Assembly: GCA_022340465.1 (NCBI GenBank)
Contig: JAJDNW010000020.1
Coordinates: forward strand, 52,612 to 116,611
DNA: 64,000 nt
Direction of reading: 5' to 3'
Source: Deltaproteobacteria bacterium
GTDB taxonomy: Bacteria; Desulfobacterota; Desulfobacteria; Desulfobacterales; B30-G6
Below are positions 1,517-28,988 of the stretch, in pieces (the stretch's first letter is position 1; every line of letters starts with the position of its first letter). The position numbers and the translations under genes are program-made. The notes beneath the pieces are model-generated. The model did no database searches and was not told where the DNA came from. It saw nothing but the letters and a program-made list of their open reading frames with translations.

Positions 1517-2202
1517 GAATCGTTCATTTTTTCCCAGGCAGCGAAATTGACCTCCACCTCGTACCTGTTTTGCAGATTTTCAAGCCAGGTTCGATAGGCT
1601 TTCTGGGCTTTCTGCCGTCTTACCAGCTTAACCACTTTGGCATCGATGTCGGGCTCGATCAGATGCCCCTCCTTCTCCGCGCCGTCAGACGGATAAAGCG
1701 CCTCATATGCAGCCGTCATCTCTGCCGGCGTCAGGACCACAGACGCTTCCAGATCTTCACGCACCACTTTTTCCTCGAGCAGACGCGTACGCAACTGCTC
1801 TTTCCAAACATCGTAGGAAATCGCCTGCTCCAATAGAACCTTTTTGAACTCACCGTCCGGATAGTCGGCCCTAATTCTGTCGACGGCGGCCTGCAGTTCC
1901 TCATCGGTAACTTCGAGGTTCATCTCCTCGGCCCTTTCGAGCAGAATCAGCTCCTCTGTCAGCTGATTAAGCAAGCGCAGCTTCAATTCCTTTTCCACCA
2001 GCGGGTCCGCCTGGGACTGTATCGGGGATTCAGCCGAGGCCGCATCGTACCGGCGATTGAATTCGGCCACCGATATCGAGCGGTCGTTGACCCTGATCAG
2101 GGATTCGAACCTCGGCGGGGTCGACCGCTCGCTGCATCCGCCGACGGTCAGCAAAACAGCGCTCAACAGCGTTGCTATCAAACGGTACCAAGGCATTCCC
2201 AT
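1513..2202 (-). CDS. SurA N-domain-like lipoprotein without PPIase domain
   Basis: 229 aa. The N-terminus has a basic/hydrophobic signal ending in a lipobox (LLTVGGC), so the mature protein is expected to be a lipidated periplasmic protein with Cys23 as its first residue. The remainder resembles the helical N domain of SurA/PrsA (INDRSISVAEF-like segment, long charged helices), but no parvulin domain is visible. Immediately followed by surA with a 4-bp overlap and preceded by mfd, so it is probably a dedicated partner chaperone of SurA. The exact function is inferred only from fold resemblance and neighbourhood. Confidence 0.7.
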   Translation of the reverse strand: MGMPWYRLIATLLSAVLLTVGGCSERSTPPRFESLIRVNDRSISVAEFNRRYDAASAESPIQSQADPLVEKELKLRLLNQLTEELILLERAEEMNLEVTDEELQAAVDRIRADYPDGEFKKVLLEQAISYDVWKEQLRTRLLEEKVVREDLEASVVLTPAEMTAAYEALYPSDGAEKEGHLIEPDIDAKVVKLVRRQKAQKAYRTWLENLQNRYEVEVNFAAWEKMNDS

Positions 2203-6047: not shown

Positions 6048-6572
6048 CTACGAAGCACTCACTGCCCTGATCAGTTCTTCCATTGCATGTTGTGCAATCG
6101 TCCGCATTTCGTCGTCGGTCCGGTCCTGAATGGGATGGCGTACAAACACGACCGCCGGATCATACCCCAAAGCCAGGGCCTGGGCCTCTCCAGCAGCCTT
6201 GAACTCCGATGAGGCCACATATACGCCCGGAACGCCCCGGCCTTCCAATTCCACGATATCGTGCACACTGCACGACGTGCACGACCCTCAGTCCGCAAGG
6301 GCTTCAATGACCAGGTCGCATTGTGTGCTGATTTTCTGCTGAAGTTCCACGGGGGCTGTTCTTGCAAAGGTTGGTTTCTGATATCGTTTGACCTTCATGC
6401 CCTTTCCGGAAAGCCGGGCCTCGATTTCGTCTAAAAATATGTCCCCGCGGGCCTTCGAGATGTCCAGCAGGCCCACCGTAAGCCCCTGAAGATCCGCGGG
6501 CCTGGGCAACCTTTTCCGCCTTTCAGGGGCGTTTTCAGATGTCGGGTCCAGCAGAATGGTTGTTTTCGTCAC
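6048..6572 (-). CDS. UGSC-family selenoprotein with in-frame UGA (Sec95)
   Basis: A 174-aa product if the TGA at 6290-6288 (codon 95) is read as selenocysteine. Upstream of it the frame reads CDLVIEALAD and downstream GSCTSCSVHDIVELEG, giving the motif U-G-S-C-T-S-C that names the UGSC family. The frame stays open for 79 further codons of good protein sequence to the stop at 6048. Reading the TGA as stop would leave two meaningless halves. The GTG start at 6572 has an AGGAGGT Shine-Dalgarno 6 nt upstream and overlaps the thioredoxin-domain gene stop by 4 bp. A UxxC redox motif next to a thioredoxin partner suggests a thiol/selenol redox enzyme; the substrate is unknown. A SECIS-like hairpin starts 3 nt after the UGA. 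Confidence 0.87.
6259..6284 (-). promoter_or_regulatory. SECIS-like hairpin of the UGSC gene
   Basis: Beginning 3 nt after the UGA, TCGTGCAC (6284-6277) pairs perfectly with GTGCACGA (6266-6259) around a 10-nt loop that starts with G. Bacterial SECIS elements lie inside the coding region just after UGA and bind SelB. The loop is slightly closer to the UGA than in E. coli fdhF. The hairpin is seen; SelB binding is inferred. Confidence 0.6.
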
Positions 6573-23078: not shown

Positions 23079-23197
23079 TTGAAGATTCCCCGCAGCAAGC
23101 GTAAGGGGAATCTTCACCGTAAGGAATTCTATCAATTATGATTCGCTCGCTTACCCTGCAGCTTGCTGCAGGGAATGCGCTCGCTATCTCGGTTCAA
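23079..23197 (+). repeat. 119-bp palindromic dispersed repeat, copy 4
   Basis: Same length and ends as copy 1, here starting TTGAAG. Its left half is a perfect 11-bp hairpin (GAAGATTCCCC/GGGGAATCTTC) and the right half CCCTGCAGC/GCTGCAGGG. It begins 18 bp after the HAO-like gene stop, so the left hairpin may terminate that operon. Its right end cuts into the NO-reductase remnant. Confidence 0.8.
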
Positions 23198-23452
23198 TTT
23201 CTTCTTTTTCGTAAGACCAACCGGTGAACAGCCCTGCTACGAACCATGCCAGCGCGGCAACGCCGATTAAAAACAACGAATGGGCCAGCGGTACGTTTCC
23301 TTCCAATCCGCCATGCGCGACTTCTGACAGGCCTCCCATGCCTCACAGCCGATCAAAGCGAGCGGCACGACTTCCAAGGCGCCGAAGGTTGCGCCCACCG
23401 CCACGATGGAGATCGGGCCGCTGAAGTACAGGTGATGAAAGCTGCCCGGCCG
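23184..23452 (-). pseudogene. Fragment of a quinol nitric oxide reductase (NorB/qNor) gene
   Basis: One frame reads FHHLYFSGPISIVAVGATFG and then ALEVVPLALIGCEAWE..YRWPI. This is the helix carrying the HH pair and the 'FSALEVVP' segment of NorB-type NO reductases. A stop follows at 23267. A shifted frame continues HSLFLIGVAALAWFVAGLFTG, the next NorB membrane helix, and ends inside repeat copy 4 at 23184. Only ~85 of the ~750 residues of qNor remain, with a frameshift, so it is dead. It lies between the HAO-like cytochrome and hgcB. Confidence 0.65.
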
Positions 23453-23506
23453 ATTTCACCAGCCGGCATCCGACTGAACCTAAGCCCGGGCAATTGCACA
23501 TCTGTT

Positions 23507-23797
23507 TCAGCAGCAGATGCCGTTGCCGCAAGTCGCATTTTCTTTGCCTTTTATCCAGACCTGGATAATATATGCGGCTCAGCCAACCCCGGGATTGACC
23601 TCGAACGCACCGGTCGGACAATTGGTTACGCAGGCACCGCATTCCATGCAGGCGTCAAAATCGATAATGACCGCTTTTCGGCCCTGCATCTCCATGACAT
23701 GTTGAGGACAGACCTGGGTGCAAAGGCCGCAGCCGATGCATTTTTCCGGATCCAAGACCAGAGAACTCACATCTTCGATGTACCTGAAGGCTTCCAT
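23507..23797 (-). CDS. hgcB: Mercury-methylation ferredoxin HgcB with selenocysteine at position 73
   Basis: 96 aa if the TGA at 23581-23579 (codon 73) is selenocysteine. HgcB is a 2[4Fe-4S] ferredoxin that reduces the corrinoid of HgcA during Hg(II) methylation. Cluster ligands: C20, C23, C26, C30 and C50, C53, C56, C60, the second group in the HgcB signature CMECGAC..NC. Known HgcB continues GVGCA, and here it is GVG-UGA-AA. After the UGA the frame stays open for 23 codons (IIQVWIKGKENATCGNG) to the C-terminal pair C95-C96 and then a TGA stop. That is the expected length and ending. The start has AAGGAAAG 7 nt upstream. If UGA were a stop, the protein would end at residue 72 and lose three conserved thiol positions. 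It lies 123 bp after hgcA. Confidence 0.85.
23551..23581 (-). promoter_or_regulatory. Candidate SECIS element of hgcB (UGA plus hairpin)
   Basis: The UGA at 23581-23579 is followed by 10 nt and then TTATCCA (23568-23562), GGTC (23561-23558), TGGATAA (23557-23551): a perfect 7-bp stem with a GGUC apical loop. The loop begins 17 nt after the UGA. In E. coli fdhF (from memory) the SECIS loop is also GGUC-type inside CAGGUCUG, 18 nt after UGA. Loop sequence and spacing therefore nearly coincide. SelB binding is inferred. Confidence 0.75.
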
Positions 23798-23920: not shown

Positions 23921-25105
23921 CTAAAAGGCGGCGTAGATCCAGATCCCTATTGATGCCAGCAGTCCGATAAACTGGATCGGAATATAGCGTTTCATCTCCT
24001 TTTCAACTCCCGAAGGGGAAGTAAAGGGGGTGGTTCCGGTAAAATTCATGGCCATAACGGAACTGACGGTCGTAATCAACAACAACAGGGCGATGCCAGC
24101 TTTCCAGGAAATAGCCGCCGTAAAAAACGCAAAAATAAAAAAAACGGCCGTTACCAAACCGGTAATGATTCCCTTGAGGGCAAACGCCTTCACGGGAATA
24201 AAGGGCAGCAGTGCCGGTGTTATCACGGCCCCCGAGATTATGCCGGCAGCGAGGGCATATACGGCGGTGGTCCCCCGTGTCCAGGCATTGGTTATGGAAA
24301 AGACACCCGGACCGATACCGGACAGAATAAGAATGGCCAGCGCCGACAGCATGGCCGGTTTCAATGCCGTCTGCAATTCGATCGGAGACAGAATCAAGCG
24401 CTCGAACAAGGTAAACGTCACCATCCGCATCTGTTGGTCCGCCACAAAGCCGTTTTTAAAAAAGGCCGGAATATCCGTTGCCTTCACAGGGCCGTATACT
24501 ACCCTGAAACCGGATTCCTTTTTTACCGCCGTTGCCGAAACGCCGGTTGCGCCCAATTGAGGAACGATGAGACGCCTGTGACTGACAATCTTATCCAGCT
24601 GCGCCTCCACGATCTGCCTCACCAGTGTCGCCGTTGAAAACGTGCCTTTCCCGGCCGCGCACCAAACATTGATCCCCTTGGTATTCAAAACCAGAATCCA
24701 GGCGTCGATCCCGGATATCGCCCTTCTTAAATGATCGACGGTCAGTTTGAAGTTGGCCGTCACCAGGATCTCGGAATCCCGGGTCGGTTGTCCCACCGCA
24801 TAGAGCCCCGGTACAAGTTTGTAGTTGTAGCGGTTGACGCCGCATCTGACCAGGCCGTTCGCAAGGTAGTCCGCCTTTTCCCAATATGTCTTGATCAGAG
24901 GCACCGGGCCGACCTCCGTTTCTACAAACCCTTCGACATAATGCATCAGCTTGTAGCCGGGCTGCTCGTAAAGCGCCATGGGGTCGGCATCTAAATCACC
25001 GTCACCTTTCCCTGCCCCGGGCATGGCATCCATGATCTGCACTCCTGTTGTGCAGAATCTTTCACGGTCCGGTGTATTTTTTCTTTCTATAGAAGATTCG
25101 GGCAT
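23921..25105 (-). CDS. hgcA: Mercury methyltransferase corrinoid protein HgcA
   Basis: 394 aa. HgcA carries a methyl group on a cobalamin cofactor and transfers it to Hg(II), producing methylmercury. The diagnostic cap-helix motif N146-V-W-C149-A-A-G-K is present, with Cys149 as the lower-axial cobalt ligand, inside LNTKGINVWCAAGKGTFST. The N-terminal soluble CFeSP-like domain (~50-240) is followed by five predicted membrane helices (~255-394), as in known HgcA. The ATG at 25105 has GAGG 9 nt upstream. An ArsR-type gene precedes and hgcB follows in the same direction. The ~45 N-terminal residues before ALYEQPGYKLM are poorly conserved-looking and could be trimmed by a later start. Confidence 0.97.
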   Translation of the reverse strand: MPESSIERKNTPDRERFCTTGVQIMDAMPGAGKGDGDLDADPMALYEQPGYKLMHYVEGFVETEVGPVPLIKTYWEKADYLANGLVRCGVNRYNYKLVPGLYAVGQPTRDSEILVTANFKLTVDHLRRAISGIDAWILVLNTKGINVWCAAGKGTFSTATLVRQIVEAQLDKIVSHRRLIVPQLGATGVSATAVKKESGFRVVYGPVKATDIPAFFKNGFVADQQMRMVTFTLFERLILSPIELQTALKPAMLSALAILILSGIGPGVFSITNAWTRGTTAVYALAAGIISGAVITPALLPFIPVKAFALKGIITGLVTAVFFIFAFFTAAISWKAGIALLLLITTVSSVMAMNFTGTTPFTSPSGVEKEMKRYIPIQFIGLLASIGIWIYAAF

Positions 25106-25320: not shown

Positions 25321-25677
25321 TCAGGGGCAGCATTTCAAACCCGACGAATCCGGTAGAATGTCGGCCAAACAGGTTTGATCCGATGAAATCAACGGGTCGT
25401 CGGCCACCGACCGGATCACCCATGTCAGCGCGTCGTTCACGGTAGATGCCGTTTCGCTTGTGTTCAGCCGATAATACATCCAGCGGCCCTCTTTGCGGCC
25501 TAAAACAAGCCGCGCATTACGCAAAATGAACAGGTGTTTGGATACCGTGGAGGGAGCCAATTGCAGCATGTCGATCAACTGGCATACACAGAGCTCCATC
25601 CGACCGTTCAGCGCCAGCAGGATACGTATGCGGTTTTCGTCGGCCAATGCCTTGGTGATATTCATTAATTCAAACAT
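25321..25677 (-). CDS. ArsR-family metal/thiol-responsive repressor upstream of hgcA
   Basis: 118 aa winged-helix regulator. N-terminal ALADENRIRILLAL helix, then the ArsR-type metal site ELCVCQL (Cys-x-Cys), the recognition helix LAPSTVSKHLFILRNA, and the wing GRKEGRWMYYRLN. A C-terminal Cys-Cys pair (LKCCP) could add ligands. ArsR-like genes directly upstream of hgcA have been noted in several mercury methylators. Same direction as hgcA with a 215-bp gap containing a long inverted repeat. It probably represses its own promoter and perhaps hgcAB; the ligand (As(III), Hg(II) or other) cannot be read from sequence. Confidence 0.88.
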   Translation of the reverse strand: MFELMNITKALADENRIRILLALNGRMELCVCQLIDMLQLAPSTVSKHLFILRNARLVLGRKEGRWMYYRLNTSETASTVNDALTWVIRSVADDPLISSDQTCLADILPDSSGLKCCP

Positions 25678-26549: not shown

Positions 26550-28988
26550 TTAAACCTTCGCCCGATAAAGGCGCAGGCTGTTGCTCACCACCGAAATGCT
26601 GCTCATGGCCATGGCCAGCGCCGCCAGGATGGGATGCAGGTGCCGCAGCATTTCGGGCAGTGCGTCGAAGGGTGCCAGCACACCGGCTGCCACGGGGATC
26701 AGAATGACGTTGTAGACAAACGCCAGAAAAAGATTCTGGCGGATGGTCCGCATGGTCTGGCGGCTAACCGCTATGGTGCGCGGTATGCCTTTCAGGCTGC
26801 CGCTGGAAAGTATCACGTCGGCGGTTTCAATGGCCACGTCCGTGCCGGTACCGATAGCCATCCCCACGTCGGCCTGCGCCAGGGCGGGAGCATCGTTGAT
26901 GCCGTCGCCGACCATGCCCACACGCCGGCCGCTGTCCTTGATTTTCTTTACTTCCGAAGACTTTTCTTCCGGGCGCACCTCGGCGTGAACGTCATCGATG
27001 CCCACCTGTTCGGCAATGGTCCTGGCGGTCTTGGGGTTGTCCCCTGTGAGCATGACGACATGCAGGTGCTGGCGGTGCAGGCTCTCGATGGCCTCGGCCG
27101 AATCGGGTTTCAGCTGATCCGCCACGGCCAGCAACCCGGCCATGCGGTCTTCGAGCGTCACCACCATGACGGTCTTACCCTGCGCCTGCAGCCGGTCGAC
27201 ATTCCCATCGGCGGCCGCCAGAACAGCCGCATCAAACCACTTGGGCTTTCCGACCCGTACCTTTTTTCCTGAAATGGTCGCCTCAACACCGAAACCGCCG
27301 TGAGCGCTAAACTTGTCAATGGCTGCCAAGTCTATCCCCCGCTCTTTAGCCTCCTGGACAATCGCCTTGCCCAACGGATGCTCGGACCCCTGCTCCACGG
27401 AGGCGGCCAGCCAAAGCAGGCTTTTTTCATTCATATCGGCGCCGTCCAAGACCACCACATCGGACAGGGTGGGCTTGCCCTCGGTGATGGTACCGGTTTT
27501 GTCTAAAACGATGGTGTCCAGTTTGGTGGCGGTCTCCAAGGCTTCCGCCCGTTTGAACAGAATGCCGTTCTCGGCGCCTTTGCCCGTACCGGCCATGATT
27601 GCCGTGGGTGTCGCCAACCCCAGCGCACACGGACAGGCGATCACCAGCACGGCCACCAGGCGGATCATGGAAGGAACGAACTCACCGGTCACCCCCCACC
27701 AGATGCCGAAGGTTATAAAGGCGATCAGGATCACCCCCGGCACGAAAACCGCCGCCACCCGGTCGGCCAACGCCTGGATCGGCGCCTTGCTCCCCTGGGC
27801 TTCCTGAACCAGACGGATGATCTGGGCCAGGGCGGTTTCCTGCCCCACCCGTGTCGCCTGAAACTTGAGCAGGCCTTCGCCGTTGATGGTGCCGCCGACA
27901 ACCGTGTCGCCTTTCTTCTTGTCGACCGGGATCGGTTCGCCGGTCAGCATGGACTCGTCCACCGCCGAGCGTCCCTCTATCACCGCACCGTCCACCGGAA
28001 TGCGCTCCCCGGGACGCACGACCACCGTCATTTCTTTCTTCACCTGGGAAAGGGCGATCTCCTTTTCCTGTCCGTCTTCGACAATGAAGGCGGTCTTGGG
28101 CTGCAGTCCGATCAGTTTGCGAATGGCATTGCCGGTCTTTCCCTTGGTGCGGGCCTCCAGAAGCTTGCCCACCTTGATCAGGGTGATAATCACCGCGGCG
28201 GTCTCGAAATAGACATGCTGGCCGGCTGCCGGAAACAGCAGGACGACCCAGGAATAGAAGTAGGCCACCGACGAACCCATCGCGATCAGCACGTCCATGT
28301 TGGCACTTTTGTTGCGGAGGCTTTTAAAGCCGCCCACATAGTAATCCCAACCGGTGTAGAACTGAACCGGCGTGGCCAGCGCTGCAAAAAGCCAGTTGAC
28401 CCACACCGCATGGCTCCAGGGACCGATGAACCCGAAATCCCGCAGCATGCTCAACACAAACAGCGGCAGGGCGAAAATCGCGCCCACGATCAGCTTGCGC
28501 GTCTGGTTGTGAATCTCCGCCTGGCGGGCAATCTGCTCGGCATCTTGACCATCGGCGCTCTCTTCAGGAAGAATGGCCCCGTAGCCGGCTTTTTCGATGG
28601 CAGCGACGATATCGTCGACACCCACCACATCCGGTATGAAATCGATGGCCGCGCGCTCGGACGCAAAGTTGACGGATGCCTGCGTGACGCCCGTCACTTT
28701 CTTGTCGAGAGTTCTTTCGATGTTGGCGGCACAGTTCGCACAGGTCATGCCGGTTACGGGTAATTCCAAATGCTGCGTGACCACACCGTAACCGGCCCGT
28801 TCGACGTTCTCCACCACGGCCTTGACGTCGATTTGGCCGGGGTCGAAGCGCACACTGGCCTTTTCGGAAGCAAAATTGACCGAGGCTTCCTGGACGCCGT
28901 TCAACTTATTGAGGCTCCGCTCGATATTGGCGGCGCAGTTGGCGCAGGTCATGCCGGTCACGGGCAGCGATACAGTTTCTTCGGGCAT
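26550..28988 (-). CDS. copA: Copper-exporting P1B-type ATPase CopA
   Basis: 812 aa. Pumps Cu(I) out of the cytoplasm. Two N-terminal heavy-metal-associated domains have GMTCANC motifs (C15/C18 and C83/C86). Eight membrane helices follow with the metal-transport CPC motif in [13 protein letters not shown], the TGEP actuator motif, the phosphorylation site DKTGTIT, the SEHPLG (HP) motif and [16 protein letters not shown]. All catalytic elements are intact. A SHOCT-domain membrane protein gene is 27 bp upstream in the same operon, and a consensus sigma-54 promoter precedes both. A metal-sensing two-component system lies further upstream. Confidence 0.97.

Follow-up and report, generated by a model that had tools for sequence, protein, structure and literature searches.

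A predicted selenocysteine HgcB with a conserved SECIS-like hairpin in a Desulfobacterales lineage

The Cys-type HgcB of ND132 and most other organisms has two CxxCxxCxxxCP motifs, the sequence GVG-x-A around residue 73, a C-terminal Cys-Cys pair and an adjoining hgcA gene. The functional weight of residue 73 is illustrated by mutagenesis in the mercury methylator ND132, where replacement of Cys73 by Ala abolished Hg methylation (PMC7305189); the initial annotation had referred to such mutagenesis, and the published result agrees with it. Loss of both tail cysteines in ND132 cut methylation by 95% (PMC7305189). According to the HgcAB model in that work, residue 73 lies about 13 Å from cluster B, with the tail within reach, and it was proposed that the HgcB tail delivers CH3Hg+ to Cys73 (PMC7305189). 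SAM has since been reported, in a 2024 paper, as the methyl donor of HgcAB (PMC11588087).

A form of HgcB with selenocysteine (Sec) has also been described. It was predicted by Haft and Gwadz in 2023 (J Bacteriol 205:e00259-22, as cited in PMC13188914 and PMC11588087), and a 2026 review (PMC13188914) lists the mercury methylation ferredoxin HgcB with NF040864, the motif GVGU and WP_250697400.1. The same review lists a Sec-containing HgcA (NF040863, motif CU). The initial annotation of the present DNA knew of no published selenocysteine HgcB. This part has to be withdrawn, as Sec-HgcB has been in print since 2023; therefore, the hgcB gene described here is a well-supported further case of a published kind. 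It shares the family model, the residue and the predicted recoding with the published entry, which comes from another organism and locus. The available parts of PMC13188914 and PMC11588087 say nothing about conservation of the hairpin, fixation in a family or transfer, some of which Haft and Gwadz (2023) may contain. What we add is a measurement of the constraint on the hairpin, the distribution of the Sec form, a tree of HgcA and the occurrence of Sec in all 53 sampled genomes of one family (f36) that have an HgcB match.

The window analyzed here is a stretch of 64,000 nucleotides from a genome of 4.39 Mb (162 contigs, 95% complete). Its hgcB gene runs from 23797 to 23507 on the minus strand; the positions of the initial annotation hold as plus-strand numbers, and the strand had been left unstated. 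It comprises 96 codons, the 73rd being UGA, and is terminated by TGA. Its translation is MEAFRYIEDVSSLVLDPEKCIGCGLCTQVCPQHVMEMQGRKAVIIDFDACMECGACVTNCPTGAFEVNPGVG-U-AAYIIQVWIKGKENATCGNGICC. The in-frame UGA, at 23581-23579, stands exactly where homologues have the conserved Cys73, within the motif P-G-V-G-U-A-A-Y-I-I-Q, and the frame continues to the C-terminus ...GICC. Translation thus agrees with the earlier placement of the codon and with the earlier reading through the UGA to a C-terminal Cys-Cys and a total of 96 residues. The product scores 117.6 bits with the curated HgcB model NF040864 (cut-off 99), when Cys is substituted for U and the stop is counted as a 97th residue. The translation contains two CxxCxxCxxxCP cluster motifs, C20-C23-C26-C30P and C50-C53-C56-C60P. 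The score above the cut-off, both cluster motifs, the neighboring hgcA and the Cys/Sec position 73 identify the product as HgcB. Cys-type HgcB differs from it in having Cys73, encoded by TGC or TGT, and mostly Thr or Ser at residue 80.

The partner gene hgcA (23921 to 25105, minus strand; start codon provisional) lies 123 bp upstream of hgcB on the same strand and scores 405.4 bits with NF040863 (cut-off 275). Its product has NVWCAAGK with the usual Cys, in contrast to the Sec-containing HgcA listed in PMC13188914, although it is the same partner protein. Sec was not found among the HgcA partners of the 62 Sec-HgcB loci surveyed below; 61 of these loci have an HgcA with NVWC, and none was found for L058. 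Six of the partners, recovered by tblastn, vary in the CAAGK that usually goes with NVWC: CAAAK occurs in L020, CAAGE in L033 and L083, CAASK in L034 and L067, and CAASE in L050.

Upstream of hgcA lies a gene for an ArsR/SmtB-family regulator (25321 to 25677, minus strand; NF033788, 90.1 bits, cut-off 55). A gene for a heavy-metal P-type ATPase follows at 26550-28988, also on the minus strand, with no internal stop codon; the N-terminal metal-binding domains of this ATPase match NF041115, UxxU metal-binding (seleno)protein, at 118.3 bits (cut-off 95). The region downstream of hgcB (23187-23455, minus strand) contains two open pieces that overlap in different frames and are possibly the remnant of an oxidase-like gene. 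One of the pieces has a match to COX1 that is below the cut-off (PF00115, E 0.021).

A search of the genome for the selenocysteine machinery, as the initial annotation had suggested, found selA (592.6 bits), selB (374.5 bits), the tRNA-Sec gene selC (75.4 bits) and selD (385.9 bits), all above their cut-offs. The selD gene (L114; G000:C13:29872-30798, minus strand) has a UGA of its own, within an AGAG-U-ASK motif. The second UGA-containing gene that had been noticed in the window, of the UGSC family, is likewise present: it extends from 6048 to 6572 on the minus strand, with an assumed GTG start and the TGA at 6290-6288, and scores 152.2 bits with NF041046 (cut-off 125). The UGSC selenoprotein family is already listed in PMC13188914. 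The hgcB gene has the features of a selenoprotein gene, namely an in-frame UGA at the Cys site of its homologues, a SECIS-like hairpin with a GG loop, and selA, selB, selC and selD in the same genome. From these sequence features, we consider it highly probable that the UGA-73 gene and its hairpin are read by the organism's own SelB and tRNA-Sec, which would yield a 96-residue HgcB with Sec at the essential Cys73 position. SelB would bind the hairpin, and Sec would be inserted at the UGA.

HgcB was searched in two largely overlapping samples of 389 genomes each, one drawn from the order and one from the class, at E <= 1e-15, and an HgcB-like match was found in at least 168 genomes of the order sample and at least 170 of the class sample. 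We read every TGA-flagged hgcB locus among the matches listed and a share of the unflagged ones, 94 in all; L025 duplicates L112 and was dropped. Among the 93 loci of this selection, codon 73 is TGA in 62 (61 genomes) and TGC or TGT in 31. Two TGA-flagged loci are not of the UGA-73 type: in L084 the flagged TGA is the stop, and in L082, described below, it is codon 23. Two UGA-type genes (L044 and L068) come from G250, where they lie on different contigs of an assembly with 8% contamination.

A single change from TGC or TGT to TGA would suffice to create the codon, and contigs of metagenome-assembled genomes hold errors. The UGA could accordingly be a point mutation or a sequencing error, and hgcB a truncated pseudogene. 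We give this explanation hardly any credence. The initial annotation had pointed to relatives with the same TGA and a downstream hairpin as a check, and 61 further hgcB genes carry both, the lowest HgcB identity between a pair of UGA-type genes being about 42%. Furthermore, the relatives keep an open, conserved frame past the UGA, with the C-terminal Cys-Cys kept in 59 of the 62 Sec-type proteins, and the codons that form the hairpin are frozen, as detailed below. A pseudogene or read error is therefore rejected in the main on the shared TGA-73 and the frozen hairpin codons. On this comparison, the hgcB gene with UGA-73 is in all likelihood a genuine selenoprotein gene rather than the result of a mutation.

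A different possibility is that UGA-73 acts as a true stop or as a selenium-sensitive switch, so that the main product would be a 72-residue HgcB and the full-length protein would be made only with ample selenium. The 72-residue piece retains both cluster motifs, and HgcB database entries of 72 residues exist, although these are products of gene callers and uninformative about the cell. Conversely, the frame, the tail cysteines and the SECIS-like codons after the UGA are all conserved, and residue 73 is essential in ND132 (PMC7305189). We regard a stop or switch as improbable. Insertion of Sec is the reading that we favor, and some termination at UGA-73 may conceivably accompany it under low selenium.

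The SECIS-like hairpin is located at 23568 to 23551 on the minus strand and has the sequence UUAUCCA-GGUC-UGGAUAA. Its 7-bp stem begins after a 10-nt spacer from the UGA, and its GGUC loop lies 17 nt past the UGA. Stem, loop and spacing match the initial annotation exactly, and the near-identity of geometry with the SECIS of E. coli K-12 fdhF, which had also been claimed, is upheld: the fdhF element has a GGUC loop as well, 18 nt after its UGA, and CAGGUCUG is found around the loop in both fdhF and hgcB. The two elements differ in their stems, that of fdhF being longer and bulged (computed fold) and that of hgcB a plain 7 bp. The fold of the hgcB hairpin as a single sequence is only moderately distinctive (z -1.62; 10 of 200 shuffles are equally good). 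An Rfam scan of the window at the gathering threshold returned one tRNA and no SECIS.

The hairpin exceeds chance because it is conserved across the UGA-type genes. The 7-bp stem is kept in all 62 of them, the window's gene included, whereas redrawing synonymous codons, with codon use taken from each gene itself, would leave both the stem and a GG loop in about 5 of the 62. The loop begins with GG in 61 of the 62 and is GGUC in 50 genes, GGUU in 6, GGUG in 2, GGGC in 2, GGUA in 1 and AGUU in 1. The protein sequence by itself imposes some of the pairing, as 21 of the 31 Cys-type genes show 5 bp at the hairpin position. All 7 bp are present there in two Cys-type genes (L102 and L103), whose loops lack the initial GG; in Cys-type hgcB, unlike in the window's gene, GG at the loop position is absent but for chance.

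The constraint is also visible in the individual codons. Three isoleucine codons of the stem, Ile77, Ile78 and Ile82, are ATT, ATC and ATA, respectively, in all 62 UGA-type genes, compared with ATT at 77 in 8, ATC at 78 in 16 and ATA at 82 in 1 of the 31 Cys-type genes; the Sec genomes are all related, so that their counts are not independent and Fisher values for Sec against Cys are inflated by kinship. The contrast between the stem codons and the neighboring codons of the same genes is less affected. Codons 77, 78 and 82 are the sole ones without synonymous change among 48 conserved degenerate codons of the Sec set, whereas one of 43, codon 23, lacks such change in the Cys set. Residue 80, whose codon supplies the GGU of the loop, is Val in 60 of 62 Sec proteins; of the 31 Cys proteins, 1 has Val and 27 have Thr or Ser. 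Therefore, the RNA seems to dictate an amino acid too. Taken together with the codon data, the hgcB hairpin looks to be under selection as RNA.

In family f36, a hand count finds the Sec form in 53 of 53 genomes with HgcB among the matches listed. The window's own family is represented by four genomes, of which the window's and G003 have the Sec form and G001 and G002 the Cys form. We also scanned 84,980 species, each represented by one genome, for the motif GVG-U-A-x-Y-I-I-Q in any codons. This yielded 59 stretches, assigned by record titles; the pattern requires the YIIQ tail, so that other forms would escape it. According to the titles, the stretches come from genera or families of Desulfobacterales or from Delta- or Proteobacteria left unclassified. 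The matches include Desulfospira joergensenii DSM 10085, Desulfocicer vacuolatum DSM 3385 and Desulfamplus magnetovallimortis, and such cultured or named carriers make the Sec form testable.

In a phylum sample, an HgcB match was found in 116 of 395 genomes, and 112 of these lie outside the order. No Sec at residue 73 was seen in these 112 genomes, of which 107 were judged by their match rows (no TGA within the match), at least one match, in G634, ending before codon 73. The remaining five TGA-flagged rows outside the order all have TGC or TGT at codon 73, the TGA being the terminal stop.

The history of the pair was examined in an unrooted tree of 87 HgcA sequences, 60 from Sec loci and 27 from Cys partners; L058, L096 and L108 (no usable HgcA) and L029, L091 and L105 (short matches) were omitted. 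One branch, with support of 100/100, has 59 of the 60 Sec rows on one side, the window's among them, and the tree requires two changes between Sec and Cys partners. The window's HgcA falls into a starred set of ten Sec rows; its nine companions there come from family f36. The HgcA of G003 is placed elsewhere in the Sec clade, beside that of G145 from another family (100/99), and those of G001 and G002 are placed in the Cys part of the tree. The window's pair is thus within the Sec clade though G001 and G002 of its own family are of the Cys type, and therefore it was probably acquired horizontally. By its place in the tree, the window's hgcAB pair belongs to a Sec-HgcB lineage of Desulfobacterales.

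An unrooted tree cannot distinguish gain from loss, and the window's family is sampled by only four genomes. It could thus be that the Sec form is ancestral in this family and was replaced later by Cys types in G001 and G002, with no transfer into the window's lineage. We think this unlikely, though it deserves some weight, given the grouping of the window's HgcA with nine f36 rows, the position of G003 beside G145 and that of G001 and G002 in the Cys part. Misbinned contigs retain a small probability as the origin of the family pattern, above all the 3.25-kb contig of G003. Horizontal acquisition of the pair is still the reading that we prefer. The heavy-metal ATPase gene, which ends 1.4 kb before the hgcA start, is matched at 63-70% identity in each of the family's other three genomes, as expected of a resident contig in this comparison inside the family alone. 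G003 has a second ATPase match at 34% identity.

The sole exception among the 60 Sec rows is L083 (G154:C6, hgcB near 1767-2033, minus strand), whose HgcA is placed among the Cys types. Before the UGA, its HgcB is nearest to the Cys types, with 75% of residues shared with L098, though the group means are close (63% for Cys and 61% for Sec). After the UGA, it is identical over 17 residues to several Sec types, and the DNA is 94% identical to that of L080. To judge from this division, L083 looks like a Cys-type hgcB onto which a Sec-type 3' end, with UGA and SECIS, has been grafted. It is also possible that the 3' end arose by convergence under the SECIS constraint.

By analogy with the published Cys-type HgcB, the two [4Fe-4S] clusters would pass electrons to the corrinoid of HgcA, the tail cysteines would serve as carriers of Hg(II) or CH3Hg+, and residue 73 would take part in the transfer. 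We propose that Sec73 would act in this step as a selenolate; its hold on Hg or CH3Hg+ would probably be tighter, with exchange retained. Selenium binds mercury strongly, and one may speculate that a selenol at residue 73 of HgcB changes the handling of Hg. In a family of sulfate reducers that apparently has Sec at this residue, selenium status could control methylmercury output. More broadly, methylmercury formation may have become dependent on selenium within a single ancient lineage of sulfate reducers. Sec would have replaced Cys73, become fixed in a whole family, and spread both by hgcAB transfer and by grafting of the UGA-SECIS 3' end onto Cys-type hgcB, and selenium supply would decide which organisms methylate. 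We offer this broader scenario tentatively and at present lean somewhat against it.

The selB gene was considered as a marker separating Sec from Cys genomes and was rejected, as its cut-off is exceeded in 54 of the 61 Sec genomes and also in 25 of the 31 Cys genomes. Seven Sec genomes fall below the cut-off. Three of them, G250, G358 and G391, show partial matches resembling fragments, and no selB match at E 1e-40 was found in G392, G384 and G363 (77-81% complete). The seventh, G374, carries a UGA-type hgcB, is 100% complete and 7% contaminated, and has only a short match, of a size that is also obtained with EF-Tu-like genes.

A TGA at another position was observed in L082 (G179:C339), where TGA occupies codon 23, the site of the cluster ligand Cys23 (CSGUGEC), and codon 73 is TGC. 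A strong hairpin (-17.3 kcal/mol) follows this TGA, which may be an error, the mark of a pseudogene or a codon for Sec as a cluster ligand.

Surveys that require a complete hgcB may miss UGA-type genes, since HgcB entries are cut at 72 residues. The database entries P0021, P0044, P0087, P0096 and P0115 have this length, which is what gene callers that take the UGA for a stop would produce, and P0096 is named as the dihydropyrimidine dehydrogenase PreA subunit.
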